From a virus: DNA of 64,000 bases. The notes under the pieces were generated by a model that was not told the DNA's origin, searched no databases, and was given only the letters and a program-made list of their open reading frames with translations. Each line of letters opens with the position of its first letter. The first letter of the stretch is position 1. The position numbers and the translations under genes were made by a program. This document shows, one piece after another, positions 12,200-33,945 of the stretch. The stretch lies in the IMG/VR virus record IMGVR_UViG_3300017971_000224, positions 1 through 64,000 of that record, one strand, 5' to 3'.

Positions 12200-12209
12200 G
12201 TGAAGTGCG

Positions 12210-14198
12210 ATGTCGTTGTTTTTGGCAGACTTAGATCCTTATGACACCGAGTCGGATGTTGCAAAGGACACGAATGTCTACCTGCGCATTGGGGCCGATG
12301 GCGGCGACATTGTGGACTTGGACACGGTGCTAATCACCATCGAGGGGTCGGACGCCTATGACGGTGATGGCACGCCAGCGGGATACCAGGACGGGTTCTA
12401 TGGTACAGTGACTTCGGACGGTTCGAACGGTTACATTTTTGACATTGATCCTGAATCAGATTTTCCTGAAACAACTACAATAGATGTTGATGTTTATGCT
12501 GAGAATACTCTTGGTACAGTTATATTGAATCAATCATATTCTTTTGACATTACCACTTATCCATTTATTTCGGCTTTGGACCCAGCAAATGGTGAAACCG
12601 GTGTCGACCATGACAAAAACATCGAGATGACACTGGATGGTGGGTCTGGAAACATCACGAAATCCACAATTGAAGTGCGCGTAGATAGCGTACTTGCGTA
12701 TGACGATGATGGTGCTACACCAGGTTTTCAGCCTGGTTTTCAAGGTACAGGCTCCAGTATCGTGGTGAATGGTAATGGTTATGACCTGGTTATCGACCAG
12801 GAAGAGGATTTTGGTGCAGGCCAAAGGATTGATTTACAAATTGATGCTGATAATGACTTAAGTTTTTCTATTGATGAAGATAAGTATTTCAAAACTAATA
12901 TTTACACAACTCAGATCAATCCAGTTACACCTGTGGGTAATGAGAAGCTCGCGCCTATCGAACAAAGTATTTACATAGACTTTACCAAAACACCTGTTTT
13001 GATAAAGGTTAATTCAGTTGTGGCGTGGGACGGCGCTTTTCAAAATGGATGGTCTGGCCTCAACATTTCACATGTTGACGGTACCCGTATCGTCCTCGAC
13101 CCGCCATCTGATTTTACCATCAATGTGGGCGTGGTTGTTGAGGCTCAGACCACTACAGATTCACGAACTTGGCGCTTTCTACCTGGTACGACACAGGCCA
13201 CCACTACGCATGACACAGGTTCTCCTGTAGTTTTGGATGCCGATGGCAGCCTGTGGTACGCATACACCAGGGACTACGAAGAGGGCCTCACACCACCATT
13301 GCAGCCTGGCAACATTTACATGCGTAAGGGCAATCCGCTTACCGCCGAAGCCATCACGGTGACTGGACAGGTAGTAGATGTTGGTTTTGATGCTAATACA
13401 GGACTTATCAATGTTGTGTTTGAACACAATAGAAAAGTCCAGTTTATGACAGTGTTACCAACGGATAGTCCTAGTTACAAGAATCCAGAATCTATTCTTT
13501 TCACCAATGCCAATATGTCTCTTTATGGTGATCAGCGAAGACAACGTGGTACTATTTTCTATGGTAGTACATATGGTAATCAACGAAGAGGTATGACATA
13601 CGACTGGGGTACACCAGGACTTGGTGAATTTCTCAGTACACCGTATCCAGTCACACTACACTGCTACAATACCGTATCCTCATACATGCAGGAATATGTG
13701 ATTGGTTTTGAAGTGTACAAGAGCATTCCCGGCTCTTCGTATTGGAGACCACTCGGTACAATCAGTTATACGTATGGTGATCCATATGCGGTTTTTGTTG
13801 ATAATAAATTTATTGCTGGCGCATCATATCGATGCCGTGCAATATTTCAATATGATGATACGGCCACGTCTAAGATTTTCAAAAGCGTTACGAGCGACAT
13901 TGTAACACTGTCCGAAAATACGATGTCTGATTTAGCGGCGATGTCTATATATGGTGGCAGAAAACGCCAGGTTGTGTTGTCAGTTACTATCTCACCGCCT
14001 CTAAAAAGATTGATAGCTGATTATGGTGATATATCTGTTTATGGCGGTAGAAAACGTCAGGTTGTACCTTCGTCTACTAGTTATGTACCTGTCAAACGCG
14101 TATATGATACTGAAACTATGGACATGTCTGTGTACGGCGGAACTGATAGAATAGTGAAACTCGACATCACGGGATACGATCCGATAGGAGTTGGTTGA
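12210..14198 (+). CDS. Tail-tip protein with Big_5-type Ig-like domains and YGG(R/K)RQ repeats
   Basis: 662-residue structural protein. Residues 1-130 and about 130-230 are two Ig-like domains of the SbsA/Big_5 kind (LDPANGETGVDHDKNIEMTL; DAYDGDGTPAGYQDGFYGTV and a second copy, AYDDDGATPGFQPGFQGTG). The middle is a beta-rich propeller-like stretch. The C-terminal quarter has repeats of S-[LIV]-Y-G-[GD]-x-[RK]-[RK]-Q (MSLYGDQRRQ, MSIYGGRKRQVV, ISVYGGRKRQVV, MSVYGGTDRIV). It sits 10 nt after the tape measure gene and overlaps the next start. A distal tail or tip role is inferred from position and from Ig-like domains, which commonly decorate tail proteins. Confidence 0.75.
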   Translation: MSLFLADLDPYDTESDVAKDTNVYLRIGADGGDIVDLDTVLITIEGSDAYDGDGTPAGYQDGFYGTVTSDGSNGYIFDIDPESDFPETTTIDVDVYAENTLGTVILNQSYSFDITTYPFISALDPANGETGVDHDKNIEMTLDGGSGNITKSTIEVRVDSVLAYDDDGATPGFQPGFQGTGSSIVVNGNGYDLVIDQEEDFGAGQRIDLQIDADNDLSFSIDEDKYFKTNIYTTQINPVTPVGNEKLAPIEQSIYIDFTKTPVLIKVNSVVAWDGAFQNGWSGLNISHVDGTRIVLDPPSDFTINVGVVVEAQTTTDSRTWRFLPGTTQATTTHDTGSPVVLDADGSLWYAYTRDYEEGLTPPLQPGNIYMRKGNPLTAEAITVTGQVVDVGFDANTGLINVVFEHNRKVQFMTVLPTDSPSYKNPESILFTNANMSLYGDQRRQRGTIFYGSTYGNQRRGMTYDWGTPGLGEFLSTPYPVTLHCYNTVSSYMQEYVIGFEVYKSIPGSSYWRPLGTISYTYGDPYAVFVDNKFIAGASYRCRAIFQYDDTATSKIFKSVTSDIVTLSENTMSDLAAMSIYGGRKRQVVLSVTISPPLKRLIADYGDISVYGGRKRQVVPSSTSYVPVKRVYDTETMDMSVYGGTDRIVKLDITGYDPIGVG

Positions 14199-14731
14199 TG
14201 TCTATTCCCACACTCACACAGATGTTGAATAAACATCGAGCTGAGGGCCGTCTATCCTGGTTGCCTCGTTTAAGTGGTGAGATCTTTGCCACGTTGAGGG
14301 ATGAAGATGGGCGTATTGTTCAGCAGTTACGTCAAAAAAACTTGATGACAAGAACATACTGGGAATTCAGAACAAGGTATGATTATCAAATAAATACAGT
14401 GAGTATTTGTATTTCCAACGATGATGATGTGATGAATTTCAGAAAGACCATATTTAGAAATACTTATACTGATACTGGGTCTTTAACTTCTAATACGATC
14501 GAAGTTAATAACACAAGCAAGACTTGGACATTTAGAGGTACTTTTGGCGCGCCGTCTACTGATAATACTATTTATTGGGTGGGTTTGGCAACTAATTTTG
14601 CTGTTTTAACTTCTGGTGATTTTAACATAAAATATCAATGTTATTGTGGTACAAAATTATCTTCTTCGTTCGTACAAACAACATCACAAACGCTGGAACT
14701 CGTCTACAGAATTTCTCTCACACAGGTGTGA
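14198..14731 (+). CDS. Probable tail-tip structural protein, unknown family
   Basis: 177 residues. ATG 14198 overlaps the previous TGA and has AGGAG at 14186-14190. The N-terminus (LNKHRAEGRLSWLPRLSGEI) resembles the 'export/attach' start of the following protein in style only. The rest is beta-rich and polar with no enzymatic motif. Tight coupling to its neighbours argues for a virion component of the tail tip. Confidence 0.6.
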   Translation: MSIPTLTQMLNKHRAEGRLSWLPRLSGEIFATLRDEDGRIVQQLRQKNLMTRTYWEFRTRYDYQINTVSICISNDDDVMNFRKTIFRNTYTDTGSLTSNTIEVNNTSKTWTFRGTFGAPSTDNTIYWVGLATNFAVLTSGDFNIKYQCYCGTKLSSSFVQTTSQTLELVYRISLTQV

Positions 14732-14734
14732 CAC

Positions 14735-17700
14735 ATGAGTAACCATCTTTGCACAGGGTATTTGAACCTTCGTATCAAGAACGCAGTCACTGGTGAAGAG
14801 AAAAACTCCAGGCACCCTAATGCATTTGTGATGTCTGCCAATCTCCAGGAAGGCATGTTCAACGATATAGTTGGCGGTCGTGGCGGATATAGTGTTGGTG
14901 TCGGAGCTATGTGTATGTTTCTGCGTACTGATGGCGGGTATCGTTATGAAAAAGATACTCATACTGTTTTATATATAGACCATTACAACATGTCAGATTT
15001 GTGGGATCACTATTGGGCTGCTGGCTCTGCTGACTACATGAGAAGACGACAATATCCATCTGCAAATCGAACAGCCACATTAACTGAAGGTATCAATGCT
15101 GTCGCTTCATTCATTTCTGGTTGGGATAATTATAGGTATTTGACAGAAAACGTAGTTGGTTTCCCGACAAATTATTATGGTATACCGGCGATTTCGTTTA
15201 TTGACTTACAGGGTACCGCAATTAGCCCATTGTTGTTTAAACATGAAAAAGGTTTCAACAATATTTTCAATCATGCAACAGCAGGTACTGACATTGCTCT
15301 CAGCCAGGGTGATGTTGAAATAGAAGGAGTGTATTCGCCTGATTATTTACAACATCGTTGGTATTGCATTTATTATGCTAATGAAGGCGGTACCGGAATC
15401 ATCGATTCTGGTGTCGGGGAACGTGATGATGGTTCTGTTTCTACTGGCTCTGATACCTTTACCGCGAATAGTGGTACTGCGCCGTTTGCCGGTGATGCTT
15501 CTGATGTTGGAAGATACATTGTTATTAAAAATGCCACCAATGCTATCAATAATGGTGTTTTCGAAATAACTGCTTTTATCAGTACTACCCAATGCACAGT
15601 TGACGCCACGACCATTAATCAACCATTCGTGACCGAGGGTGGTGCTTCGCCTAGCGGTTTGGAATGGACATTGCGCGATGGTCCTGTTGGTGAGTATCTG
15701 ATTAGAAGAAACACATATACCAGACAAAATACACAAGGCACTACTGTACCCAGTTATGCATATGGTGGTGGGCGTTTGTATGGTATGCGTCATGAATATC
15801 ATGGCACAGAAGAAGTTGGTATGTTTGGGTATGAAAGTGTGTTTGATCGAGGTGCGAGTTGGTGGTGGATTCACAGAAGAGATGATGAATCTACAACACG
15901 AGCTGGTGCCGGTATCAATCGCTGGCTGCACATGGCACCAAGGGGTTTTGATCCTGTTTATCAGGACGGTGATATACAAAATATGCCGACTGGCATTCGA
16001 GCTTGGCGTTCGATAAATATAGATGATGAAAATAAGATATGGGCTGCATGGTCTAATTATGACTATCAACCAGATCCACCACATGCCGACAAAATACTTG
16101 CTCGGATTGATCCATATCCGAGTGGTAACGCCAGGTATCCTGCCGTCACAGATCTTCATGATCCGGGCAACTACGATTTATTTGAAGCGCAAACTGGGCC
16201 CACTGACGACGAAGGTTTGTGTTCAAATTATCCTATTGGTATTTGTTGTGATGAAATCAATGGTCGTGTGATTGTTGCACACAACCCTGGCAATCTCCAT
16301 GTTGGTGAAACGTACGAGGATATGGAAAAGGGCGGGTTCTCGTACACAGAGAATGCGGGTGCAGCTGAGTACGGGGATGCGTGGAAACGTTTGCATTTGT
16401 TGCATTCTGCTTCTGGCACTGTGACTCCTTCAGGTACCACACTCAATGGTACCAGCACGTTCTTCCAGGATGAGTTTGCTGTTGGTGATTGGATTCGACC
16501 TGAGCCTAAGCCGGCGACAGGTCAGATCACATCTATGATTCCGGCTGACTACACGGACGGCGACTGGTTCACGTTAGATGACGGGCTGAATGACCCGGTC
16601 AAGTTCTTCTTCGATGTATCTGGCTCCTATAGTCCTGGTTCACCGCCTGCTGGTTGGCAGTACGTGACTATTACTATTACTGGTCTTGGTACTGACGTAC
16701 TCATCGCCGATCAGATTCGAACTGATGTCAATGGTACAAGTAATTTGGATATAACGGCTGGGAATACAACTGCACAAGTAGATTTCACAGCCGATAATGA
16801 TGGTGATCGTGCGAACAACACAATCACGGAAATGATTCAAGCCCCCACCAAAACTCTTAATCCTAGTGGTTTGAGTGGCGGAATCATCAGGGCCTTTGAA
16901 ATAACTGGCATTACAAACCAGACAACAATGACTATCAGTCCAACATATCCAGAATCATATACAAATCTGACAATTGAGAAAGGTGCACTTACTGCCGCAC
17001 AAGCGGTTGTCTATACAAGATATCATACCCCATCAACAGATACCAGTGATTACACCATTAGGTGTTATGTTGATTATGATAAACAAGGCAATTTCTTTTG
17101 GGTTTCTGATGATGGTAATCAAATCAATAAGTGGAGTTTTTCTAAGGGTTATGCCGAATCAAGAACTACAGCCGAATTCTCGAGGGTTGCTACTGATAAG
17201 ATCAGAAATCTAGTTGTCACTAGATTCAAGACTGACGGATTTTCCGATCACGCTTTTGAAGGTAATGTGTGGACCGGTTCATTTGGCCTTAACGCAGCTC
17301 TGAGAATTGATAACGATGGTACGAACGATTTTTTGAAGTGTCAAGTAACACAATATCACCATAGCGCGTCTGATAACTGGCCAACTGAAATCCAGATACG
17401 GGATTATGATCATGACTATGGTTTATATGTGCTTTGGAATCCAAATATAGGGGCACTGGGATTATGGGCTCCGTATTCAGCTGGTATCGAGCGTCATTAT
17501 TGGGTAATCAATACAGTACATTCAGGTATTCCACTTGGGTATTGCCCACGTCTTGGTAGTCTATCTGAATTAAGTGATAGTGAATCTACTTGGAGTGTTA
17601 TACACGACATGCGTTGGGACGATGTTGGTATGAATAATCAATTGCTTGTTGGTCATGGCAAATCAACAGATTATGATGCAAATACAAGAGATGCTTTATA

Positions 17701-20700
17701 CTCTTTTGGCAGAATGAGTTATTTATGGGATGGTCAAAGTTGGTATTTGACACATTTAGTTAGCCACAGATATTACGATCTTGATTTCGAGAATACAACT
17801 GGAGATGGCCCGTTTACTGAAGAAACATTGTCGGTAGGCAACGGATTGAAACGTATGCATGATGATTTTCAACTCATGCAGGACGGGTTGTACATTCGTT
17901 TTGTTGATTCTGGAGCCGCCTCTCAGACAGACGAATTCGTACAAGACGAGACAACTACATTTGCTGCCTACATTGGTGTAGGAAAAGATAACACTCAAGA
18001 AGTTGAATATTCTATAGAAAGATATTCTTCACCTACAGTTCATAGAGATCGTTCAGAACCCATGAAGGGTTTATCCAATATGTGGACTGTGGATGGTGGT
18101 ATTGATGGTGGGTACATCCACGATCTTACTGTACAGCGTACAGTACCATTCCATCGTGGTGTAGCTGAATATGACGGTTATGCGTCGTATGGCCAAGATG
18201 GTAGTGCAACTGGTACACAAGCAGATTATTATTATAATTTTTTCAATCAAGATGGCTACGACGAACACGACGATCCAGACGACGCACATTTTATGGCTGC
18301 ACTTAGGATCAAAGATGAATCTGATGGTGTTGATGAATTCCCCGGTGATGGTTTTGTTACCAATGGCAGTGATGTGTTCACCACTGAAACATATGCTGTT
18401 GGTTCAATTACAGCCCTCCCAAACGATGGTACACCGTGGTCTACTGGTCTGAAGGATGGTGATACTTTTACACTTGATGATGGTGTGAATTCACCAACTA
18501 CGTTTTGGTTTGATGCCTCTGGTAGTGGTTCTGGTAGTGGAGTGGAGATTGACATCAGTGCTGTATCTACTCCAGGCGATGTTGCTGATTTGATTCGTTC
18601 TGCTATCAATAGTGCTGCTAGTCTAGACATTACTGCAGACAGTAATTTAGGTGACCCGTACATCACACTCAAGAATGATGCTACTGGCAGTGCAGGCAAC
18701 CAGGTTATCACTGAGAGCTTGGCGAATATAGCTTCACTTAGGCCGGTTGGCATGAGGATGCACACGTTCTCGGCAGCCGATGAGGGAAAATCAATTTTCA
18801 TCGAGAATGCCACTACCGCAGGAAACAACGGTCAGGCTGTGATTTTGGAGTTTAATCCCAGCGGTTCTGATCCCAATGAAGTGAAGGTTGATCGTACATT
18901 TAATGCTGGTGATGAAAGTGGTGTTAATACGTTACGGTGGAAGTTGCGAGACATACCGGCTGTTGCGTATGTTGTATATACTGTGGAGTATACAGACCGA
19001 ATGGATACTATGGTTGGTGGTATAGATTGGAAATTATATTCAAGTAGGGACCACGGCAGTACATGGACGCAAGTCAAAAAATGGTTGAGCTACAACGGTG
19101 TATCAATAAATGATCCGCTTTCTACTGTTCAAGATCACGGTGTGTATTGGAATGATTATGATTATGTTGGTACATATCATTACCGTACAGATGCTCTAAG
19201 GGGTTCGCCCAGCCTGTGGTTTGATCTGAGAGACTTACCTGAAGCGTCTAGGAGAAGACAATACTGGAAAGTATACAGAAGTTATTATGGTGGTACTAAT
19301 GGCCAGCATAGATTTTCTTCTGTTCGTTTGCTAGATGCTAATGGCGCTTATATTGGTGTACTTGACACACAACAATTATCAGATCGTAGTGATGAACATT
19401 ATGTGTCTAATTTGACGGAACTTTATAAACTAAATGTTTTTGAAGGAGGCGGTACGATCGCCGCCACTGATGATAATGACGGTGATAATCTAACTTATAT
19501 ACTCACCACATCAACAACAGATTTATATGAAGATACTGGAAGTGGTAATGCAAAAATCACACGAATGGGAAATATACAAATTACATCAGATACTTTTGTG
19601 CCAACAGATGTTGGAAAACTAATCAGAATATCTGATGCCAACGATTCTGATAACGACGGTTTTGCAAACATCACCACATACATCAACGCCAGAGAAGTAA
19701 TCACCGATAAGGCGTTTACGTACGAAGACGGTACGTTCGATTGGCAAATATTGTATATGGGTGAAGATGATCAGATTTGTTTCTATCAAGATCCATATTC
19801 GACTGACGACACGTTTTTCTTGTCTGATCGCTATATGCCACTGAGGAATTTCAACCCTCAGATATTAGATGTACCTGCAAATAACACCATTTATTTGAAA
19901 ACCGATAACGTTCCACTACAAATAGGCGGAACACCATTCAGTGGATTCAAATTCTTTGTGTATAGGGCGCTGGATACTCAATCATCTTCTAATCCAGGGC
20001 GCGCGGGTTCTACAGACATAAATTTGGCTATGTGGGTGAGCCAGCGTGGTGGCGGAGTGTATGCATCCGATGTCCTTGAGTTCATTACACTTATTGCCAC
20101 TACAGCCGGTGCGACATCGCCCGCTGATGACGATGGGGATAGCAGAACAGATATCGTTGATCTTCCGGTTGACGTGAATGCTTTTGATGTGGCAGTTGGT
20201 GATTATATTGTCATAGAAGGCAATACAAGTAATTATGGCAGAAGAGTACATGAAATTCGTAACATTAATGTGGAAACACTCGGTGCTGCTGAGACCTGGA
20301 CGCTTACGGCTTTGGTTAAGGGCAGCTACTCGAATGGCGACTACTTCGTCATGGATGACGGTATCAATCCGGTGGTGTCCTTCTACCTCGATGTAGATGG
20401 GTTGTATGATGCTCCTGCCGGTACAGTGGAAATTGATATTTCCGGTACGTCCACAGCCATCGATGTGGCCAACGCCATCCGCACTGCCATTCTCGAGGCA
20501 CCCATTAGGATCACGCCGGATGCGCCTGGTGCCGCACTCATTAACCTAACGGCCGATCAAGCGGGAACGCAAGCGGCTAACGATATTCAGGATTTCACCA
20601 CAGGCGGGTTGTCACCAACTCGCGGAGCCACGGCCTCGGACGGCACTACGCAGTTACAGGTGTGGTACGACGAGATACTAGTCAGCAAGTCATTCAGTTT

Positions 20701-20776
20701 CTCTATTGTCAGGCGACGTCCAGATTGGAAGCTATGGGTTGGGTCTATAGTTATCGTCGCGCAGGAGCAGATATAG
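14735..20776 (+). CDS. Giant modular tail-fibre/tip protein (2013 aa)
   Basis: A 2013-residue beta-rich protein with no catalytic motif. It carries three copies of the DGD-F-LDDG module (A1 about 596-720, A2 about 1226-1335, A3 about 1857-1965) and three or four copies of a second module (B: 'DVGrxIxIxNAT..NNG...ITxxI.....vDk.F......W.lrd', near 232-318, 1342-1410, 1612-1675 and the last 60 residues, where A3 interrupts it). An Asp-box-like motif (SRDHGSTWTQ) is near 1439. The architecture suits a long receptor-binding or decoration fibre. Its last 43 nt overlap the next gene. Start ATG 14735 has AGGTG upstream and follows the previous stop by 3 nt. Confidence 0.75.
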   Translation: MSNHLCTGYLNLRIKNAVTGEEKNSRHPNAFVMSANLQEGMFNDIVGGRGGYSVGVGAMCMFLRTDGGYRYEKDTHTVLYIDHYNMSDLWDHYWAAGSADYMRRRQYPSANRTATLTEGINAVASFISGWDNYRYLTENVVGFPTNYYGIPAISFIDLQGTAISPLLFKHEKGFNNIFNHATAGTDIALSQGDVEIEGVYSPDYLQHRWYCIYYANEGGTGIIDSGVGERDDGSVSTGSDTFTANSGTAPFAGDASDVGRYIVIKNATNAINNGVFEITAFISTTQCTVDATTINQPFVTEGGASPSGLEWTLRDGPVGEYLIRRNTYTRQNTQGTTVPSYAYGGGRLYGMRHEYHGTEEVGMFGYESVFDRGASWWWIHRRDDESTTRAGAGINRWLHMAPRGFDPVYQDGDIQNMPTGIRAWRSINIDDENKIWAAWSNYDYQPDPPHADKILARIDPYPSGNARYPAVTDLHDPGNYDLFEAQTGPTDDEGLCSNYPIGICCDEINGRVIVAHNPGNLHVGETYEDMEKGGFSYTENAGAAEYGDAWKRLHLLHSASGTVTPSGTTLNGTSTFFQDEFAVGDWIRPEPKPATGQITSMIPADYTDGDWFTLDDGLNDPVKFFFDVSGSYSPGSPPAGWQYVTITITGLGTDVLIADQIRTDVNGTSNLDITAGNTTAQVDFTADNDGDRANNTITEMIQAPTKTLNPSGLSGGIIRAFEITGITNQTTMTISPTYPESYTNLTIEKGALTAAQAVVYTRYHTPSTDTSDYTIRCYVDYDKQGNFFWVSDDGNQINKWSFSKGYAESRTTAEFSRVATDKIRNLVVTRFKTDGFSDHAFEGNVWTGSFGLNAALRIDNDGTNDFLKCQVTQYHHSASDNWPTEIQIRDYDHDYGLYVLWNPNIGALGLWAPYSAGIERHYWVINTVHSGIPLGYCPRLGSLSELSDSESTWSVIHDMRWDDVGMNNQLLVGHGKSTDYDANTRDALYSFGRMSYLWDGQSWYLTHLVSHRYYDLDFENTTGDGPFTEETLSVGNGLKRMHDDFQLMQDGLYIRFVDSGAASQTDEFVQDETTTFAAYIGVGKDNTQEVEYSIERYSSPTVHRDRSEPMKGLSNMWTVDGGIDGGYIHDLTVQRTVPFHRGVAEYDGYASYGQDGSATGTQADYYYNFFNQDGYDEHDDPDDAHFMAALRIKDESDGVDEFPGDGFVTNGSDVFTTETYAVGSITALPNDGTPWSTGLKDGDTFTLDDGVNSPTTFWFDASGSGSGSGVEIDISAVSTPGDVADLIRSAINSAASLDITADSNLGDPYITLKNDATGSAGNQVITESLANIASLRPVGMRMHTFSAADEGKSIFIENATTAGNNGQAVILEFNPSGSDPNEVKVDRTFNAGDESGVNTLRWKLRDIPAVAYVVYTVEYTDRMDTMVGGIDWKLYSSRDHGSTWTQVKKWLSYNGVSINDPLSTVQDHGVYWNDYDYVGTYHYRTDALRGSPSLWFDLRDLPEASRRRQYWKVYRSYYGGTNGQHRFSSVRLLDANGAYIGVLDTQQLSDRSDEHYVSNLTELYKLNVFEGGGTIAATDDNDGDNLTYILTTSTTDLYEDTGSGNAKITRMGNIQITSDTFVPTDVGKLIRISDANDSDNDGFANITTYINAREVITDKAFTYEDGTFDWQILYMGEDDQICFYQDPYSTDDTFFLSDRYMPLRNFNPQILDVPANNTIYLKTDNVPLQIGGTPFSGFKFFVYRALDTQSSSNPGRAGSTDINLAMWVSQRGGGVYASDVLEFITLIATTAGATSPADDDGDSRTDIVDLPVDVNAFDVAVGDYIVIEGNTSNYGRRVHEIRNINVETLGAAETWTLTALVKGSYSNGDYFVMDDGINPVVSFYLDVDGLYDAPAGTVEIDISGTSTAIDVANAIRTAILEAPIRITPDAPGAALINLTADQAGTQAANDIQDFTTGGLSPTRGATASDGTTQLQVWYDEILVSKSFSFSIVRRRPDWKLWVGSIVIVAQEQI
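16522..16893 (+). repeat. Structural module A, copy 1
   Basis: Encodes about 120 residues with the pattern 'DGDWFTLDDG ... FFFDVSG ... IADQIRTDVNG ... LDITA ... ANNTITE ... GLSGG'. It sits inside another module: the upstream flank ends VGDWIRPEP and the downstream flank resumes FEITGITNQTTMTISP, which together resemble one phage-fibre motif split by the insert. Confidence 0.7.
18410..18756 (+). repeat. Structural module A, copy 2
   Basis: Pattern 'DGDTFTLDDGVN ... FWFDASG ... VEIDISAVSTPGDVADLIR ... LDITADSN ... GNQVITE'. It lies between FVTNGSDVFTTETYAVG and HTFSAADEGKSIFIENAT, which correspond to the two halves of the B module seen uninterrupted at 15429-15687. Confidence 0.7.
20305..20640 (+). 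repeat. Structural module A, copy 3
   Basis: Pattern 'NGDYFVMDDGIN ... FYLDVDG ... VEIDISGTSTAIDVANAIRTAI ... AANDIQDF'. The flanks (VGDYIVIEGNTSNYGRRVHE before; TTQLQVWYDEILVSKSFSF after) again read as a split B module. The DNA here is more GC-rich than its surroundings. Confidence 0.7.
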
Positions 20777-22653
20777 CACTTTCGAACCCAGCCGTCGCCG
20801 CCCTTGTCGGCGATGCAGAAAGAGTTCGCTTCATACACTTGCCCAATATGCCTGGGTCTATCAAGGCGTATGTGGTGTATGTTGCACTGTTGACTTCGCA
20901 AAAGAAACAGTTTGTTTTTAAGGAAATAGAGTCTCTCCTGACGGACCCGGCTAAAGAGCTCATCGCCCCAATGAATGATATTGCGCACAATGTAATACCA
21001 AATGATGAGGCTGTGGATATTCAGAATTTTTATATAATAGAAACCAATACAAACAATAATGTTCTCTTCTTGTGGGACGATGGTGCAGATATATGGAAGA
21101 TGGTCTATGATTTCCAGAATCTTCAAACCACGGTTATTCCGCAGGTGGCGTTCGCCGGTACACACCCAGTTCTGGCTCGGGACTGGATGCTGCGTGCGTT
21201 TTATGTGGTGTCGCGTGATTTGAAGCTCAGAAATGAATTGACTGTTCCTGAGCTGGATATTGTTACGCATTCAGCATATCGTTTGCTGAGTTTTGATATA
21301 GACGATAAATCATCAGATAGTTTTGTTTATTACATAGGTAATTATGACAATAAAGCTAATATTCCATTGCCATTGTCGACGGACGCGTACACCAGAATTC
21401 TTTTAGATTGTACGCGCGAAACACTGGGCCCAGGTGCTCACCAGACTGTTGACATTATTGGCGGTTTAGTTTTAACAAATACTACACCAAGTCTTGTTCA
21501 TACAGGGCAACCCGGGCAGATTGGTGAATCATGGCTTTTTGAATATCAGTCGGGTTGGTTTTCAAATTGGAATATTCCATTAAGTGCGCCACTATCATTT
21601 ACTGATTTTTCCGTAAGTGTTTGGATATATGGCGGTGCTGATCAGCCAGTCAATAGCACTATAATCTATGGTAGAGATGCTAGTTCAAATAGAGTTTTTG
21701 AAATACTTCTACCTTGGGGAAGTGGCACTGTTTATTGGCGATGTGGGAATAGCGACACAAGTTCTTATGACCAGTTAACATATACAGGTAGTGCTAGTTA
21801 TTACAAAGGTAAATGGACACATTATCTTTTCACCAAAAGCGTGTCTGGTGGAAGGATGAAAATATTTAGGGACAATGTTCAAGTTGCTAGTACAACAGGA
21901 AAGACACGTTTTCTTTCAGATGTGGACGCCCTTTGGGTGGTGCCAAGATATTCTGGTTATGTGGCTGAAGTCGTGTTCATGGACAAGGAAGTTGTGACAT
22001 CTGAATTGGCAAACATATACAATAGAGGACTGCAAGGAAACCGTATTGATAGTTCTATTGTCGGGGGTTTGGAGCATTATTGGACTTTTGATAATTATGA
22101 TGCAAGAGTTATAGTTGATGATTCTGGTAACGCGTACAACGCTGTTATCAATGACGAATGGTCAATTTCTGATGAAGGTGCCATTCGTATCGGCGATTAT
22201 CCAGCACAAATTAATCAATGGGATGTTGGAGGGCCTGGCGCTCAAATCACAATAGAAGCTTGGGTTACTCCTAAGTTTATAAGCCAATTGGGTTACGTAG
22301 TGAATGGCGATATAAGATTTTATTATGACCTGAGTGGTGAATTGCATTTTGAATTTGATGGTGCCAGTACCCATCATTTGCAACAGGTTGCATTGCACAC
22401 TATGAGATGGAACGAACCAAATCACATCGTGGTTTCACACACCTTTGGAAACTCTACAAACACTTTCATGGCTATCAACGGGAACCCGGTGCCATCACAA
22501 TGGATGTCTGGCGACGGCAATGAAGATCCGTCTTTTGGCTTGATTAATACAACTATCGAAACTGGATTGTATGATATATTGAGTCAGTATAAGATATCCT
22601 TTATAGCAAAGACAGAAGCTGAGATAAAAGATTATATAACAGGGAGAGTATAA
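20734..22653 (+). CDS. LamG/concanavalin-type tail protein
   Basis: 639 residues from ATG 20734 (GGAAG just upstream; the frame is open back to GTG 20662). After an N-terminal beta domain, two laminin-G/concanavalin-like sandwiches can be seen: about 223-433 (FTDFSVSVWIYGG, KGKWTHYLFTKS) and about 446-639 (GLEHYWTFDNYDA, ITIEAWVTPKF). Such domains bind carbohydrates or act as spacers in phage fibres, so adsorption to a surface glycan is a reasonable inference. It overlaps the preceding gene by 43 nt and its TAA overlaps the next ATG. Confidence 0.75.
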   Translation: MGWVYSYRRAGADIALSNPAVAALVGDAERVRFIHLPNMPGSIKAYVVYVALLTSQKKQFVFKEIESLLTDPAKELIAPMNDIAHNVIPNDEAVDIQNFYIIETNTNNNVLFLWDDGADIWKMVYDFQNLQTTVIPQVAFAGTHPVLARDWMLRAFYVVSRDLKLRNELTVPELDIVTHSAYRLLSFDIDDKSSDSFVYYIGNYDNKANIPLPLSTDAYTRILLDCTRETLGPGAHQTVDIIGGLVLTNTTPSLVHTGQPGQIGESWLFEYQSGWFSNWNIPLSAPLSFTDFSVSVWIYGGADQPVNSTIIYGRDASSNRVFEILLPWGSGTVYWRCGNSDTSSYDQLTYTGSASYYKGKWTHYLFTKSVSGGRMKIFRDNVQVASTTGKTRFLSDVDALWVVPRYSGYVAEVVFMDKEVVTSELANIYNRGLQGNRIDSSIVGGLEHYWTFDNYDARVIVDDSGNAYNAVINDEWSISDEGAIRIGDYPAQINQWDVGGPGAQITIEAWVTPKFISQLGYVVNGDIRFYYDLSGELHFEFDGASTHHLQQVALHTMRWNEPNHIVVSHTFGNSTNTFMAINGNPVPSQWMSGDGNEDPSFGLINTTIETGLYDILSQYKISFIAKTEAEIKDYITGRV

Positions 22654-22919
22654 TGGAGTTTCCTATTCATATCGTGATTGAAAATCATACATCATCAAAT
22701 ATTACATTTAATCTCAGGCAAATATTTTATTTTGGCCATGTGAATTTAGAAAATTCAACACCTTTGATAGAAGCTGGTTCACAATACGAATTTGATGCAG
22801 GTCTTTGTGATGGGAGTGATTATATCGACGCTATGCGACGTTATTGTAGAAATAATGAAATCATATTCAATCCTAGTACTGGCATCTGGGTCACGGTGAC
22901 GGATAACGAGCCGCTCTAA
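22653..22919 (+). CDS. Small protein in tail-tip operon, unknown
   Basis: 88 residues; ATG 22653 overlaps the TAA of the previous gene. No family recognised. It is beta-rich with two cysteines and an acidic C-terminus. Translational coupling to the LamG gene suggests an accessory or assembly factor for the tail tip. Confidence 0.6.
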   Translation: MEFPIHIVIENHTSSNITFNLRQIFYFGHVNLENSTPLIEAGSQYEFDAGLCDGSDYIDAMRRYCRNNEIIFNPSTGIWVTVTDNEPL

Positions 22920-22945
22920 AGCCCAGAAAACAGAGGTGAGCGGCT

Positions 22946-25900
22946 ATGCCAGACATTTTTCTTGGGGAGTTAGATCTAGATCTCACCCCGCCTTATGTCC
23001 AGAATGAGGACCCAGCACCAGGTCAGACAAACGTCTCTATAGAAACCGCTATAAGTTTCAACATATTGGAACCAAATTTTGAGGCTGGCGTTGATCCTGA
23101 CACCATCACTGTCACCGTCAATGGCACCAACGCCATCCTCGATGGGTTTTTCCAGACGGGGTACAACGGATCAATCTCCCCCATCACATTGGGTTTAGCT
23201 GTTGGATACCGCGTCATCATTGTGCCAGCTATCTACCTGTCAGACGACAGTACCTTCCTCATCACCGTAGACGCAGATGACCTTGCTGGTATTCCGAACA
23301 CGATGCCAACGCACAGCTGGACGTTTTACACCGGTGAGCAGTTTGATACCAACGCCCACATTTTTCTTGCCAACTCTATGACTCAGACGGTGAACTCTGC
23401 ATCTTCTGCATTTCAATCAAAGTTCAATCAGGTGCAGGCCGGGAGCCATGGCAACATTTCGTTGTCCGTGGAGAAGGATAACCCAGACCCGACGAAGAAC
23501 TATCAGATCCGTACTATCGTTGCCGGTCGCCTTGATACAAAACTCAACGTGGTCCAAAACACTGAACTTGAGCTCGGTGTGGGCCAGATTACGTATGAGG
23601 ACGAGAAGGTCTTCAAGGGCGATTATCAACCGCCATTGGTTGTAGTGGATGATGGTGATGAAGTCTATGGCATTAATCGTACGTTCAATCGTATGGTGTA
23701 CTCATCTATTAACAACCCAATTTTCAATCTTAGATTAGTAGATAGAGATGATGATACTTTCTTTGTTTTTTATAGAGATGGCATTGGGGTTAAGGCGTCA
23801 GCTGTAAATAAAGTTAATACATCTGGTTCAACTGGAATCACAGCGCTTTTGGTAAGCGGCGCGAGCGGCATGGATGCTGCTGTTAAATTATCTTTTACTT
23901 CGTTTATGGTTGCTAGCCTCAGTAGTTCCTCTGCTGGTGGTGTTAGAACATATACAATGGAAATAGTTAAATGTGATCAATATGTTGTTAATGAAGAGGT
24001 GATCAGCCCGTTTCAATTCACAGGCCCAGACGCATCAGACGCAGGGCACTTAGATCTCATAGCTGACGGTAGTGGGAATGTTTATGGAACTTTCTATTAT
24101 ACAGAAACTGGCAATGATATAGATAGAAAGATTCGTTTTATAAGGTCATACGATAACGGGAATAATTGGGATTTTGTTTATTTTCCAGGCACGAATGAAA
24201 TCTCCACATTACCAAACTTTTTTGATGAGATTGGATTTGATCCATACACTACAAATGGTGATGGTCTTGAATATCCAAGATTATCATACGATCCAATAAA
24301 TGAAATTTTCATCATTACCGTGATGTCTAAACGTACCGCCCCTGATGCCGGCGCAAGATGTGGAACAGCGTATTCAAAGGATTTTGTTACGTGGAATAGA
24401 TTGAATTACCCTGTATTCAGAAATTTTGTTCAATTATGGAGTACAGCTGAAGATTTGGATACAGATGAAAAGAGTGCAAAGTTAGTGAGATTCAATAATA
24501 AATATTTTTCTATATGTTCAGATTCTGAAGGTATTTATTCTTGTATATTCGAAAGTGAAAATGAAACGCATGGTTCACGTCGTGGTTTGGTGTGGGCTGG
24601 GGACAATAGTTCTGCGACTGGTGGTTATCGTATAGATAAGCACGACTATGCTGTTTTTAATAATGTATTGTATTATGCGACTGAATTCTTAAGTACTGGA
24701 TTCGCAAAAATTGGATTTGTAATTCATGCATTGGGTGGGCATACCAATTTGCCTGATAAAACACAATACAGCGGTGGATGGTTCGGTACAGTTGGAGAAC
24801 CAGATTCTGATATTGGATTTTCTAAAACTGTTGGTGGTACAAGTAGTGCTTCATCAGATCAATATGGATTAACTATTACTGTAAATACTGGTGCAGCAGA
24901 TCAACTTTATTACGGTAGAACAGATCTAGATACTAGCGTCATGAAAGACGATGGCGCAAAAGTCAAGTTTGTTATTAAACCAGTACAAGACGGAGGACGA
25001 ACTTCTGACAGCGCGCAAAGAATACATTTGAAACTTCCAAATACGGGCAATACTGATAATTTTCATATTACAGTAAGAGTTAGTACAGATGGTATATATG
25101 TAGTTAATGAATCACCAGGTGGTGAATCTGCACAGTTCGCTATAACTATAAATGATTTCTATGAAATATTATTGGTTGCGAAACCATCGTCTACTACATG
25201 TGTGGTGAAATGTTTCTATAGATCTGTATACGCTAATGCGCTTTGGACACCCGCGTCTATTGAAAGTACTACAGACACGTGGATAGAATTAACCGGTATA
25301 CCGACGTTTACTTCTCCTGATACAACTTCTAAAGGCGAATTTCATTTTGGTTTGATCGGCCCACAACCTTCTCAAACGTCTGAGGCCATTTGGAAATCAG
25401 TGTATTATTGTGATGGTGTTGAACCAACAGATATAGAATTCACAACAACGGATTCTATTGATACGTATAATCCTTCGACAGATGAAGCTAGTTTAGATTT
25501 ATTGCCAATAGGACGTGAAGGTATACGGCAACGTACAGTCGGTAGTGTAGATACATGGCAACGTACAATCAGCGGTATTATACTGCGTTGGCACGGCTTG
25601 GATGCTTTCAAAAATGACAGTTGGACTTTTAATACTACAAGTGATTTTAATGAAGTAAATGTAACTAGTAAAATACCAAAGCTTGTTTATCGCACAGAAA
25701 ATACAAGTTCTGATCAATCAGTATTATTCTTTTCTGAAGATGACGATATGGGCGCATATATTATGGATACATTCATAATGTTAAATACAAATTTCCGTTA
25801 TTGTAAAATACAGGCAAATAATGATGGTACTACTTGGTCGCCAGCGCCATTGGAGCTTGATGTAGATTTTGGTTTAGAAGATGGCACAATATATGAAACG

Positions 25901-26695
25901 ACATTAAGAATAAATGAAGATATGTTGACTATCAGATGTGTTGATAAAGAGTGGTTACATGGTGAGTTGCGAGGTAAATACATTCTCCTGGAACGAATCT
26001 TCGAACCGCATGTGGTAGCACCTCCGGGTTCTGATCAGGAATACAGAAATGTTGCTTTTAAAATCGTGGATAATGGTGCTGATTTTGTCATAATCAGCAC
26101 AGCTGGTTTGATAGATGATGCCGCACATGGCGGGGCTTCATCCCACTTGTTTCAAGATCAACGTGTTGTGGCTGGAGATTCTTTTGTTATTTATGATTCA
26201 AGAATGAGTTTAGTTACACGTGATGTTTCTGCTTATAAATATGTCAGGTTTTTCATTAGACAATCTGATTTATGGTCCGATCCGTGGGGTAATAACCAGC
26301 CAAGTTTGCCGAATGAAGACTCATGGTCAGTTGGCGAATTAGACTTTGGGAAACGTATCGAGTTGGAAGACAACTTTAGCTATGGATCGACTCGACAATT
26401 ACAACAGAACAATACAATCAAGGAGAATGACTATGGCCAGTCAGATGTAACGAATCAAGGAGAGCCAATTCACGTATTCTCTATGGTATACAACATTACT
26501 TCCGATGATGATGCTGATGCGCTTCAAGCGTTGTACGATGCCGCCAACGAAGTAGGTCAGCCGTTTTGGTACATTCCTGATGTGGTAACAAGCCCAGAGG
26601 AATTGTACCTTGTTGTATTCTCTAAGGATTATTCGTATTCAAAGACACTCCCAGATCGGCAGGATATCAAGTTCTTGTTGGAAGAGGTCGTGTGA
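22946..26695 (+). CDS. Tail protein with Big_5 Ig domain, Asp-box propeller and concanavalin-like domain
   Basis: 1249 residues; GAGGTGA precedes ATG 22946. Order: Big_5 Ig-like domain (about 10-130; DPAPGQTNVSIETAISFNI); a propeller-like region (about 230-620) with a sialidase Asp-box (SYDNGNNWDF near 401) and a related SKDFVTWNR; a concanavalin-like sandwich (about 640-830); a beta-rich C-terminal domain ending in KDYSYSKTLPDRQDIKFLL. Asp-boxes mark sialidase-like folds but no catalytic Arg triad is evident, so glycan binding is likelier than hydrolysis. Probably part of the adsorption apparatus. Confidence 0.75.
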   Translation: MPDIFLGELDLDLTPPYVQNEDPAPGQTNVSIETAISFNILEPNFEAGVDPDTITVTVNGTNAILDGFFQTGYNGSISPITLGLAVGYRVIIVPAIYLSDDSTFLITVDADDLAGIPNTMPTHSWTFYTGEQFDTNAHIFLANSMTQTVNSASSAFQSKFNQVQAGSHGNISLSVEKDNPDPTKNYQIRTIVAGRLDTKLNVVQNTELELGVGQITYEDEKVFKGDYQPPLVVVDDGDEVYGINRTFNRMVYSSINNPIFNLRLVDRDDDTFFVFYRDGIGVKASAVNKVNTSGSTGITALLVSGASGMDAAVKLSFTSFMVASLSSSSAGGVRTYTMEIVKCDQYVVNEEVISPFQFTGPDASDAGHLDLIADGSGNVYGTFYYTETGNDIDRKIRFIRSYDNGNNWDFVYFPGTNEISTLPNFFDEIGFDPYTTNGDGLEYPRLSYDPINEIFIITVMSKRTAPDAGARCGTAYSKDFVTWNRLNYPVFRNFVQLWSTAEDLDTDEKSAKLVRFNNKYFSICSDSEGIYSCIFESENETHGSRRGLVWAGDNSSATGGYRIDKHDYAVFNNVLYYATEFLSTGFAKIGFVIHALGGHTNLPDKTQYSGGWFGTVGEPDSDIGFSKTVGGTSSASSDQYGLTITVNTGAADQLYYGRTDLDTSVMKDDGAKVKFVIKPVQDGGRTSDSAQRIHLKLPNTGNTDNFHITVRVSTDGIYVVNESPGGESAQFAITINDFYEILLVAKPSSTTCVVKCFYRSVYANALWTPASIESTTDTWIELTGIPTFTSPDTTSKGEFHFGLIGPQPSQTSEAIWKSVYYCDGVEPTDIEFTTTDSIDTYNPSTDEASLDLLPIGREGIRQRTVGSVDTWQRTISGIILRWHGLDAFKNDSWTFNTTSDFNEVNVTSKIPKLVYRTENTSSDQSVLFFSEDDDMGAYIMDTFIMLNTNFRYCKIQANNDGTTWSPAPLELDVDFGLEDGTIYETTLRINEDMLTIRCVDKEWLHGELRGKYILLERIFEPHVVAPPGSDQEYRNVAFKIVDNGADFVIISTAGLIDDAAHGGASSHLFQDQRVVAGDSFVIYDSRMSLVTRDVSAYKYVRFFIRQSDLWSDPWGNNQPSLPNEDSWSVGELDFGKRIELEDNFSYGSTRQLQQNNTIKENDYGQSDVTNQGEPIHVFSMVYNITSDDDADALQALYDAANEVGQPFWYIPDVVTSPEELYLVVFSKDYSYSKTLPDRQDIKFLLEEVV

Positions 26696-29600
26696 TGGTG
26701 CAGACTGGTTTTTTACATAATCGCGCCTTACACAAGTTAGCTGCAATTCATTCTGAGGACACAGCAGAATATAAGTATGCAGTAGAAAGCACATCAAATA
26801 TCAATCCTGCAGAAGAAAATGCAGCTGAGTTTTCTATTATTGATTTTGATCCGACACAAGATTTAGAAGTACACAGCACGTCTCCTAATACGTATTATGG
26901 TATGCGTGTAAGAAATATCAATGGAGGCCCATTAATTGATAAACATAGCAATTATCGTTATCCAGTTGATGTACCAGATTTCGCTCTGGGAACAGCTCGT
27001 TTCGCATTAGTTGATTATGTAAATGATTGTATTGATAACAAGGCTAAAGACGAATATTGGTCATTTTACAATCATAGTGTAATTTCAAGTTTATCCTCTG
27101 ACAGAGTTAAGCATTCTGGCCACAGTGATGGCGAAGTTCTAATGTGCAGCTTCTATAAATATGCTGGCAATTTCTATGAAATATATGTTTCTGTTTATAA
27201 TGAATCTACTGAAACTTGGGGTGCTTATATATTAATAGATACGATACCAAGATTTCTCATTAGTGCAATTAATATAGATTGTTCTCCAACATTTTTGACT
27301 GTTCCTAATCTTGGAACGCTTTTATTGTATTATTCTATATCACAAGATGCGTATGGTTCGTTGGATTATTCTGCTCAAAATGTAACTATGGCAATCACTA
27401 AAAATCACGGACAAACATGGGAGAAGTTTGGTAGTTTTACTTTGGATCCCTATCATGGAAAAGTTGTGCCATCAGACGTGCTATTAGAATGGGGTTGTAC
27501 CGTACTGAAAGCTATATATCACAATAATAAAATTATATTAGGTACTATGTTACAAGGTACTGATTCACCTGGCGCTCCTGCTGATGATGAGTTAAGAAGT
27601 CAAAGAATATTAAACATAGTTTATTCAAATGATTTAGGCAAAAGCTGGACAACAGTACCATTTGAATTTGTTAGTGCTTCAACGCTTGGTGGTATACCGG
27701 CGACTTCATATAACTATGGTGATAGTAATAATAGTGGCCCAGCTAATTTCGGCCTTGGTGTTGAACCTCAAAGCGACAAAGTTGTTGTTGTACTTAGAAG
27801 TACTGGTGATGAAGAAATAATTGAGAATACTGAAAAGATATTTTTCTTTTATAATATTGATGACGATTTGGGGCAATGGGGTGCATCTACTGTTGGTAGC
27901 CGTAATTATCGTTTGATTGATGATTTTTCAGAGAATAGTCTTGAGACGCGTGCTAGTGGTTCACTGATTGCTGTAACTAAATCTAATTTGAACGATGGCG
28001 ACTATTTTATTTTGAATGATGGTGTAAATATAGCAACAGAATTCTATTTTGATGTGAGCGGCACATATACTCCTCCAAGTGGAGTAGAGATTGATATTAG
28101 TGCTACTGCCACTGCACAAGATGTATCAGATACTATTGTTTCTGTAGTCAACGGTGTGGGTACACTCGATATAACAGCTATAAACTACGGTGGAACTTCT
28201 ACAAGAGTTTTATTTATAGCAGATAATTATGGATCAGCGGCAAATAACAAAATTATTGAATATACCAATTCGACATTGAATGTCGATGGCATGTCTGGCG
28301 GTATTACATATCCAGTTTTGAAATATTTGATTGAAGATATTGATATTGGTTCAACCGTAACAGACACTCCATCCAATTGGCATGTGTCTGGCGGTTATTT
28401 AGTACAAGATAGTTATATTAACGACCCAAGCCGTGCTGGTGGTGCTGGAGGCACACAACTAATTTATAGAGAACATGACGATCCTACATTAAATAGAACA
28501 GTCGGTTTGCATGTAGATGTAAAATACTTTTTTGATGTTTTCCACACTGTTGGAAGTGGCGTATTTGGGTTGGGTTTTTGTAGGCAAGATGAGGATTCGT
28601 ATTATACGGTTGAGATAGATACGACTAACATCGCATATGGTATATGTGATATGAATATATATTTAATTAATGGCGCCATCGGGACAAGAACAGCAATTAG
28701 TTCATCTGCCCAAATCCCATTTAATTATATCAGCGGAGACGGCGCTATAGATGTAATCTTTGAAGGTGATGATACAATTAGAGTATTTTTCAATGGTGAT
28801 TTAATCTGTACTGCTACAGATAATATATTAAGAACAGGAAGAATTTTCTTGTTCTGTAATGGTATGGCTCCAATCAGATTCGATAACTGGGGTTTGTTAA
28901 CCAATATTGAAAGAAAGAATGTTATTGGTACCGGGGCTGATGATGGTTTTAGTAATATCTTCCCAATGGTTGGATCAAATATAGAGTTAGTTGTTGATCA
29001 ATACAATCAAGCGTGGATCGCTGCAGATATCAAAAGTACTCATTGGGGGTCTACGCAATTCAATTCATTTGGTGTTGCATTTAACAAATTTGTACTTGAA
29101 AGAGATGTAGAACGTGTAGAGGGAAAATTCTTGGCAAAGGATACTTATTCTGTAAAGTTTCATAATTCAAAATATTTCAATGATGATTGTGGTTATTATT
29201 TCTCGCCACATGAATTTGGTTTGTATCCAACCCATTATGATACAACACCAACCACACGCGTGTTCATGGAAGCTTTTCTATGGCACAAAGAAGAACCTGT
29301 TTTCTATATCCGCAGCGGTACGGACAGCAGCGGTACAGAAGAATTATTTTTAGTACAAAGAGCTATATATTCTACAAGAACAATATCACCTAATTTTGGT
29401 TCAGTTTACAGCGCTGTTCCTTGGACATCGGATCCAGAGTACTCAGGTTGGTATCTGAATGGTACGTACACAGATGTAGATGGATGGTTCATACGTACAC
29501 AACAATCTACTGGTTGGATTGAACAATCATATGTATTTGATACTGATACCTTTAGCACTGACGGCAACAGAGCGATGCCGGTTAGATATTGGGATTTTTA

Positions 29601-31200
29601 TCATCGAGGCTTCGTGTTCTTAATGTCAACAAGAAGTTATTCTGCCAATAGTGTTAATGCTACAAGAACAATTTGCGAATTTACCGTACCACGCATTATT
29701 CAAGGTGCTGCGTCACCAGAAGAATGCAAGCTGCGTATTGTGTCTACAGACGAATCTGGTGTTGGGAATGAAGACGGTAGCTATGACCTTCAACATTATG
29801 TGGGTGGTACAACTTGGACGTCATTGGATACTTTGAACAACATAGACCCAAAAGGTGGGGCCACAGGTGTGTTCTGGGACATCATGGTCTTTCTTGTGCC
29901 GTCCATGATGACATCGGATTCGTATCCACACGTGTCGGCCTACGCGCGCCTCTCAGGGTCAGCGGAGTGGTCCGTCATTGCTGAGGACGAGACAGTCAGT
30001 ACATATACGGTGGCTAGTATCGTGGCTGATGTCAGAGCTGGTTCGATAGGTGGTTCTGGAGCCATCAATCAACAAGAAATCAAATTTCTTGGTTATACAG
30101 ATACATGTTTTGTTGATCCAGCTATTAATCCTGTTCGTGGTGAAAGTCTTTTTAGTGGTGAGCGGGTAAAGGCCACACATGGAATCGTGTATACGGTTGG
30201 CGGAGGTTTCAGTAGCAAAGGAGATGAGTGGCATATCACAGATTTAGAAAGAAGTGATTATCCTGCGTCTAATGTCTTCGATCGTAAATCTGTTTTATGG
30301 GAAAGTGACGGTGACAATACTGATAAAGAAGTAATAATAGACGCAGACCATGATGTTGAATTTAATTCGATTGTATTAACAGGTGTTAACACAAGATATA
30401 TAGCTGTTCAGTCAAATGATACTGATAATTTTACAACACCCAATTTCTCTGTTGAAATTGATCTAGCAAAATATACTGATGTACCCATTGATAAAATAGT
30501 TAATCAAGATGATATGGTACGGTTGTATACTGTTGGCACTGGATTCCGTAGAGATGAGCTCCGAGACCAGCTGTTCATTACAGAAAATTCCAGTCACGGT
30601 TGTTTCCGTATCCGTGCAAATAGTGGCCGTTATTTATTTTATGAGACTGATACGGCAGCTTCTATACCAGTTGGAAATTGGTATATACATATACTTTCAG
30701 ACAGTGTCGCTCTTAAACTTGTGAAGAGACATAAGGATAGATATTTCAGAATCATTTGCCGAAAGAGTGGTTACACATACCCAACACCAGAGGGCTATTT
30801 CAAGATTGGTCAATTTTCAGTTGGTATGTTTGACGACTTACAAGAGAATCCAGAACGCAATCGTGACGTTACATATCAAAATCACACGAAAACAGTCAAA
30901 TCTCTTGGTGGATCGACAAGAATGTTGCGCCAAGGACCTGTATCTAGAAATAGAAGAGTTTTGTTTTCTGCCATCAGTACAAATAAACGTGCTTTTGCCG
31001 AACAATTACGTAGAATTGTTGAACATTGTGATGGCAGGTACCCTTTATTTTTCGTTGATGATATAGAAGAATATCAATTAACGTCATATGGCACATACTC
31101 TTTAAATGTTTTCCCATGTTACATAGATAAAGATATAAGCATGCCACAGAATCCAGGGAATATAACTAATATAACATTACAGCTTAAGGAAGATATATAA
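26695..31200 (+). CDS. Large tail protein with Asp-boxes, module A and concanavalin-like domain
   Basis: 1501 residues; ATG 26695 overlaps the previous TGA, with AAGAGG upstream (GTG 26692 is a possible alternative). Asp-box motifs (KNHGQTWEKF near 236; SNDLGKSWTT near 312) indicate a beta-propeller; module A occupies about 425-540; a concanavalin-like sandwich follows (about 560-740; DDTIRVFFNGDL). The C-terminus (RNRRVLFSAISTNKRAFAEQL ... RYPLFFVDD) parallels that of the preceding protein in position and style, as if both dock to a common tip structure. Its TAA overlaps the next ATG. Confidence 0.75.
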   Translation: MVQTGFLHNRALHKLAAIHSEDTAEYKYAVESTSNINPAEENAAEFSIIDFDPTQDLEVHSTSPNTYYGMRVRNINGGPLIDKHSNYRYPVDVPDFALGTARFALVDYVNDCIDNKAKDEYWSFYNHSVISSLSSDRVKHSGHSDGEVLMCSFYKYAGNFYEIYVSVYNESTETWGAYILIDTIPRFLISAINIDCSPTFLTVPNLGTLLLYYSISQDAYGSLDYSAQNVTMAITKNHGQTWEKFGSFTLDPYHGKVVPSDVLLEWGCTVLKAIYHNNKIILGTMLQGTDSPGAPADDELRSQRILNIVYSNDLGKSWTTVPFEFVSASTLGGIPATSYNYGDSNNSGPANFGLGVEPQSDKVVVVLRSTGDEEIIENTEKIFFFYNIDDDLGQWGASTVGSRNYRLIDDFSENSLETRASGSLIAVTKSNLNDGDYFILNDGVNIATEFYFDVSGTYTPPSGVEIDISATATAQDVSDTIVSVVNGVGTLDITAINYGGTSTRVLFIADNYGSAANNKIIEYTNSTLNVDGMSGGITYPVLKYLIEDIDIGSTVTDTPSNWHVSGGYLVQDSYINDPSRAGGAGGTQLIYREHDDPTLNRTVGLHVDVKYFFDVFHTVGSGVFGLGFCRQDEDSYYTVEIDTTNIAYGICDMNIYLINGAIGTRTAISSSAQIPFNYISGDGAIDVIFEGDDTIRVFFNGDLICTATDNILRTGRIFLFCNGMAPIRFDNWGLLTNIERKNVIGTGADDGFSNIFPMVGSNIELVVDQYNQAWIAADIKSTHWGSTQFNSFGVAFNKFVLERDVERVEGKFLAKDTYSVKFHNSKYFNDDCGYYFSPHEFGLYPTHYDTTPTTRVFMEAFLWHKEEPVFYIRSGTDSSGTEELFLVQRAIYSTRTISPNFGSVYSAVPWTSDPEYSGWYLNGTYTDVDGWFIRTQQSTGWIEQSYVFDTDTFSTDGNRAMPVRYWDFYHRGFVFLMSTRSYSANSVNATRTICEFTVPRIIQGAASPEECKLRIVSTDESGVGNEDGSYDLQHYVGGTTWTSLDTLNNIDPKGGATGVFWDIMVFLVPSMMTSDSYPHVSAYARLSGSAEWSVIAEDETVSTYTVASIVADVRAGSIGGSGAINQQEIKFLGYTDTCFVDPAINPVRGESLFSGERVKATHGIVYTVGGGFSSKGDEWHITDLERSDYPASNVFDRKSVLWESDGDNTDKEVIIDADHDVEFNSIVLTGVNTRYIAVQSNDTDNFTTPNFSVEIDLAKYTDVPIDKIVNQDDMVRLYTVGTGFRRDELRDQLFITENSSHGCFRIRANSGRYLFYETDTAASIPVGNWYIHILSDSVALKLVKRHKDRYFRIICRKSGYTYPTPEGYFKIGQFSVGMFDDLQENPERNRDVTYQNHTKTVKSLGGSTRMLRQGPVSRNRRVLFSAISTNKRAFAEQLRRIVEHCDGRYPLFFVDDIEEYQLTSYGTYSLNVFPCYIDKDISMPQNPGNITNITLQLKEDI
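27967..28303 (+). repeat. Structural module A, copy 4 (in a different gene)
   Basis: Pattern 'DGDYFILNDGVN ... FYFDVSG ... VEIDISATATAQDVSDTIV ... LDITAINYG ... AANNKIIE ... GMSGG', in the 1501-residue protein encoded from 26695. It appears to interrupt the start of a concanavalin-like domain (DDFSENSLETRASG before it). Confidence 0.7.
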
Positions 31201-33911: not shown

Positions 33912-33918
33912 TTGGCAT

Positions 33919-33945
33919 TAGCTGTCATGCAGCTAGCACTTTTTC
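33919..33945 (+). terminator. Intrinsic terminator after the tail operon
   Basis: A perfect 6-bp stem TAGCTG/CAGCTA (33919-33924 and 33930-33935), 5-nt loop, followed by GCACTTTTTCTTC. It lies 8 nt after the last tail gene. Confidence 0.65.

Follow-up and report, generated by a model that had tools for sequence, protein, structure and literature searches.

Module A, a segment of around 115 residues that recurs in the tail-region proteins of a tailed phage, is an unnamed domain family. It is very probably an autonomously folding insertion domain that has spread in frame within and between phage genomes, and that has been kept where it projects from a surface. The original prediction was made from the window (the stretch of 64,000 nucleotides that was analysed, part of a source record of 104,103 bases) and described A as a domain spreading by in-frame insertion in loops. 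This reading is now strongly supported by the existence of homologues with and without A in three protein families, by the use of four different sites in the tail sheath, by an A phylogeny in conflict with host descent and by the autonomy of the predicted fold.

The position of the tape measure gene (Table 1) indicates that the large open reading frames after it encode tail-tip or fibre-region proteins, which places both genes that host A in the tail module. Genes for a helicase, DnaB, DNA polymerase, UvsX, SbcCD and ribonucleotide reductase are found further along the record. IMG/VR contig 3300028840_005764 (142,861 bases) is identical over 10520-22882 and 21958-34302, 12.3 kb each. Neither host protein matched a Pfam or PHROG family at a meaningful score, a DNA search using the host gene gave no match, and within IMG/VR the ORF at 14735-20776 had no relatives apart from one identical contig. 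On the longer contig of the same phage, L167:5171-7129 matched PHROG 15433 ('tail sheath', E 3e-110) and no Pfam sheath model.

Table 1. Features of the window that bear on module A and its hosts.
Feature	Position	Strand	Evidence or remark
Tail length tape measure protein, 3517 aa	1646..12199	+	PHROG 1272, E 1e-50
Tail-region protein, 2013 aa, host of A1-A3	14735..20776	+	
Module C1, A-free paralogue of the module interrupted by A2	15413..15727	+	collinear with spliced C2
A1 left flank (GTSTFFQDEFAVGDWIRPEP), possible C-like module	16433..16519	+	weak
A1, aa 596-716 of ORF 14735-20776	16520..16882	+	profile E 1e-43
A1 right flank (FEITGITNQTTMTISP)	16883..16969	+	weak
Module C2, left piece (DGFVTNGSDVFTTETYAVG), broken by A2	18347..18403	+	
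A2, aa 1224-1342 of ORF 14735-20776	18404..18760	+	tblastn and profile; nested in module C2
Module C2, right piece (HTFSAADEGKSIFIENATTAGNNG...), after A2	18761..18994	+	
Module C3, second A-free C-family member of the same gene	19562..19756	+	
A3, aa 1852-1970 of ORF 14735-20776	20288..20644	+	profile
Tail-region protein, 1502 aa, host of A4	26692..31200	+	
A4, aa 422-537 of ORF 26692-31200	27955..28302	+	profile; AlphaFold2 model made

The claim of four copies in two genes was borne out, as tblastn and profile searches of the entire record returned exactly these four matches. In pairwise comparisons, identity between the copies is 35-47% for amino acids and 44-55% for DNA, and the scores lie 13-27 SD over shuffles. 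Given these identities they represent old duplicates, and the DNA values rule out that any of them arose recently by duplication in the window. The ends of A, which had been described as consistent, are so across the family, with a G-x-I start (94/78%) and a G-M-x-G-G end (75-96% per position). Within the window, the GxSGG end is present in A1 and A4 only; A2 reads GMRM and A3 GATAS. A3 is the GC-richest stretch of its gene (GC 0.57 and GC3 0.61, against at most 0.53 and 0.56 elsewhere), and since the elevation runs on to the end of the gene it is a mere hint of separate acquisition. A search for repeats resembling insertion scars beside the copies found none, and no DNA-level signature of the transfer event was detected. 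Among the large genes checked, the highest GC3 (up to 0.71) was observed in ORF 31200-33911, at window positions 32121-32640; this peak partly overlaps what reads as a separate beta-sandwich, carbohydrate-binding-like domain (NGGFDVDAEWTKGVGWSIGSG...SIDNVTVNK), which may be another recently acquired insert.

At least three of the window copies had been thought to interrupt continuous units. This is demonstrated for A2, as its flanks, once spliced, align collinearly with C1 at a score of 119, where the right half by itself scores 85. An equal gain came from 4 of 2000 shuffles and from none of the 35-residue stretches elsewhere in this protein (542 compared). The case of A1 is suggestive, with a weak resemblance of the spliced host to C1 (3 of 300 shuffles), and a third case is unproven; for the spliced host of A3 the corresponding figure was 16 of 300. 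Neither the A1 flanks nor the A3 flanks were picked up by a profile of the C family, and a motif search for modules of the type flanking these two copies found nothing. No A-free homologues were found for the hosts of A3 and A4, nor a solved-structure or phage relative for the latter, and a concanavalin-like reading of the A4 host, made by eye, received no support from Pfam, PDB and phage searches. In a nested model of the A2 region, whose overall confidence is low (pLDDT 65, pTM 0.43) and which leaves the left flank unresolved, the order of the A2 elements is unchanged and separate host strands follow. C1-type modules form a family of their own, with A-free members in other phages; module C, itself an uncatalogued recurring module, has at least four significant occurrences in L157 (the ORF of 2013 residues) and weaker ones elsewhere. 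As judged from the family sequences in other phages, nesting of A is the rule.

Profile-guided scans recovered relatives of A from many uncultivated phages and from myxobacterial, planctomycete and other bacterial contigs, around 40 of which are non-redundant. The conserved positions comprise D-G-[ED]-x-F-x-L-[DN]-D-G-x-N, F-x-F-D, A-[IV]-N, G-x-x-G-N and the terminal G-M-x-G-G. The invariant residues (Gly, Asp, Asn and Phe) look structural, the conserved aromatics are few and resemble core strand residues, and a search for a binding-site motif found none. CBM families gave no match. None of these results supports the glycan-binding decoration that had been suggested as a possibility. No model in Pfam or NCBIfam covers A. 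Annotated phage and plasmid records yielded no match with a single window copy as the query and one marginal match (Virus Rctr197k) with the copy of a relative, and a partial literature search found no description of the domain. In-frame insertion at many sites would also fit an intein, or some other element capable of self-splicing or homing, yet the probability of this is practically nil: A begins with Gly and not with Cys or Ser, it ends on GMSGG and not on His-Asn before Cys, Ser or Thr, its ~115 residues hold no endonuclease, and no intein family of Pfam or NCBIfam was matched.

The bacterial relatives include giant planctomycete proteins with several diverged copies each (L065, L063, L064, L062, L066, L061 and L058; 2300-3400+ residues, partly clipped by locus ends), L065 having more than 10 A matches. 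In myxobacterial/deltaproteobacterial Cys-rich CGDG...CDDG repeat proteins (L055, L056) A is located near the C-terminus, between the Cys-rich repeats. Some of the A-bearing bacterial proteins look secreted. Tandem and partial copies within one phage protein, half-length ones included, were observed in L014 (about 5800-6900) and in L034, as if they had been duplicated by unequal exchange.

The proteins that host A (sheath, baseplate-J-like, adaptor-like and fibre-region proteins) are several unrelated virion proteins, and A-free homologues were found for the first three. In the tail sheath family of L012 (Pfam Phage_sheath_1C, 3.5e-9), 15 of the 47 distinct full-length members carry A and 32 lack it, or 11 clusters versus 29 after clustering at 95%; the sheaths without A are mostly 834-908 residues long and those with A mostly 953-1063. 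L093, which lacks A, shows 75% identity to L012 and 75% to L092; these two carry A and share 72%. Four different sheath positions hold A (L015; L135; L041, L136 and L137; L012, L092, L094 and L047) and every one of these is empty in the remaining members. For L023, L033, L026 and L043 the label 'sheath' was assigned by inspection, without Pfam confirmation. In the adaptor-like family (L009, labelled by inspection alone, as Pfam gave no match) the gap closes sharply, with 'FGYVEDGIPAH[A]GVPYAIVRAL' against the A-free 'FGFVEED-MSVPKLIQRAL', and in the baseplate-J-like family (L007) 'FTTPMAGTKPT[A]TDGIKGIWEYYDG' is found against the A-free 'FTT-LAA-NIKGVWEYYDG'. The Pfam Baseplate_J model matched L007 at 0.0037 and the A-bearing L036 at 2.3e-20. 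At the first sheath site, where L015 holds A, a different domain is present in L099, L111 and L135, and L135 has both A and the other insert at neighbouring sites; this suggests a hotspot at the first site, into which unrelated domains insert.

In the tree of A, which was made without A3, has poor resolution at its deep branches and had a bootstrap not yet fully settled, a single clade of sheath-family copies was rejected (AU p 0.0036), as was a clade of the copies at the fourth sheath site (AU p 0.0087). The baseplate copy of L037 nests with adaptor copies (support 97/94), A1 and A4 of the window pair at 97/91 despite lying in different genes, and two copies within protein L035 pair at 97/88. 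The conflict with host descent indicates that A moved between genes and between phages; protein-level mosaicism is well documented for phages (PMC10684548). It is extremely improbable that A and its flanks constitute a single ancestral fold from which A was lost in the A-free proteins. Loss as such belongs to turnover under any model, but the four positions within one sheath family, the unrelated host folds and the conflicting phylogeny all argue against this explanation. For the sheath, adaptor and baseplate families it is refuted, and a fold of A plus flanks conserved in all homologues, which would have spoken against mobility, was not what we found.

The AlphaFold model of A4, based on this copy and 38 aligned relatives (pLDDT 90.3, pTM 0.86), consists of strands, one central 13-residue helix and again strands, and A is confidently predicted to be an autonomous beta-plus-one-helix fold. 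The closest solved structures in Foldseek are the phage sheaths 8kee (cyanophage A-1(L)) and 9ndy and the flagellar cap FliD; the match to 8kee has a probability of 1.00 but a TM of 0.47, and that to FliD 5h5v a probability of 0.80, a TM of 0.44 and an E of 0.05. In predicted viral structures, Foldseek located A within baseplate-J-like, sheath, Kelch-repeat and uncharacterised proteins, of which it makes up a small part. A region with the fold of A is also predicted in a Marseillevirus (LCMAC101) protein (BFVD A0A481YRU0, TM 0.72), and this match between models hints at a spread of A to giant viruses of eukaryotes. A divergent Ig-like domain, acting as an ordinary Ig-like decoration, would share the ecology of A, as a promiscuous accessory domain in the structural proteins of phages. 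This identity is nevertheless very improbable considering the helix in the predicted fold, the sheath and FliD as best solved matches (the matches to antibody and T-cell-receptor chains all had E>1 and a low probability), and the lack of a match to any Pfam Ig or Big family.

In the mechanism that we favour, the two ends of A are probably near each other, which would allow it to fit into a loop; its chain would enter and leave within one surface loop and the host fold would remain undisturbed. Transfer would occur by in-frame recombination, presumably illegitimate or guided by short homology and without a dedicated enzyme, after which selection would act on reading frame and tolerance, and copies of A projecting from the surface of a virion or cell would be the ones retained. 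The insertion in loops suggests that A is exposed on the surface of the particle. The most likely function would be surface decoration, in the sense of weak adhesion or virion stabilisation, and we tentatively put a decorating role in weak adhesion to cells or surroundings at somewhat less than an even chance.

Rather unlikely is a role as structural cement, in which A would contact neighbouring subunits and stabilise tail or baseplate, without cell binding. Tail cementing has been proposed for additional sheath domains (PMC9230969), one of the hosts of A is adaptor-like and probably no adhesion organ, and the structural look of the invariant residues of A would suit such a role; however, the proteins and sites between which A moves are unrelated and offer no conserved neighbours, and A is also present outside virions, in the bacterial Cys-rich and giant proteins. 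It is unlikely that A is a nearly neutral passenger, self-folding, tolerated and with ends suited to loops. The open frames over long divergence, the strongly conserved core motif and the many recurrences in surface-type proteins suggest selection for retaining A, as against the patchy presence (two-thirds of the sheath relatives lack it) and the absence of a recognisable active site, which favour a passenger. Less probable again, A could be a dedicated 'plug-in' display domain with one common partner, or its DNA could be biased to loops by an unrecognised mechanism. With a common partner, selection would equip whichever virion proteins are exposed with an identical docking point. Candidate partners would be a host or environmental ligand, a soluble phage decoration or a metal such as calcium, for which the conserved acidic D-G-E-x-F-x-L-D-D-G-x-N...F-E-F-D hairpin would offer a putative route.

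The distribution of A provides unusually clean natural experiments: among sheath, adaptor and baseplate homologues, the difference is a single insert with sharp boundaries, located at several sites. This makes it testable how phages gain in-frame domain insertions, and whether accessory domains of the virion aid infection, stability or nothing. In addition, with a profile of A, many phage proteins now called 'hypothetical' could be annotated in part, and protein engineering could draw on naturally tolerated insertion sites together with a self-contained insert.

Several known systems invite comparison. The tail sheath of Vibrio phage XM1 contains an insertion domain (InD) with Dali similarity to D3 of FliD (5H5V), which its authors considered possibly host-derived (PMC10457771). 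Likewise, A is inserted in a sheath and has FliD 5H5V among its top Foldseek matches, although the XM1 domain was described as a unique single case, whereas A is a sequence family with many sites in many proteins. More distant is the internal region (about 128-186; PDB 8fop, 8kee) of the phrog_165 tail sheath family, which received weak matches from 20 of 39 A members (best 2.3e-5) and which appears there as part of one protein family; residues 121-171 of the phage Milano sheath 8fop matched A at E 0.04. The Flagellin hook IN motif (PF07196) and FliD D2-D3 show a similar helix-then-strand pattern ('DVADAI..AIN...LDITA') and differ from A in protein context. The PF07196 matches were weak (E 0.0067-0.5, below the Pfam cutoff, with the best value in 1 of 39 members), and the L012 protein reached 15.8 bits against a cutoff of 22.7. 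The Ig-like accessory domains, as described by Fraser 2006 (cited in PMC9230969), are promiscuous, optional and of surface type, with weak adhesion as the proposed role, and for the additional sheath domains, most of them Ig-like, a contribution to adhesion or stability is assumed (PMC9230969). Like these, A is promiscuous, optional and found in many virion proteins, as it shows the two hallmarks of such domains, namely occurrence in several unrelated virion proteins and optional presence among homologues (three families). Ig-like phage domains are usually added at ends or between domains. A, on the other hand, has another fold and sits nested in host loops; it is a non-Ig kind of promiscuous phage accessory domain, distinctive by its loop insertion at many sites.
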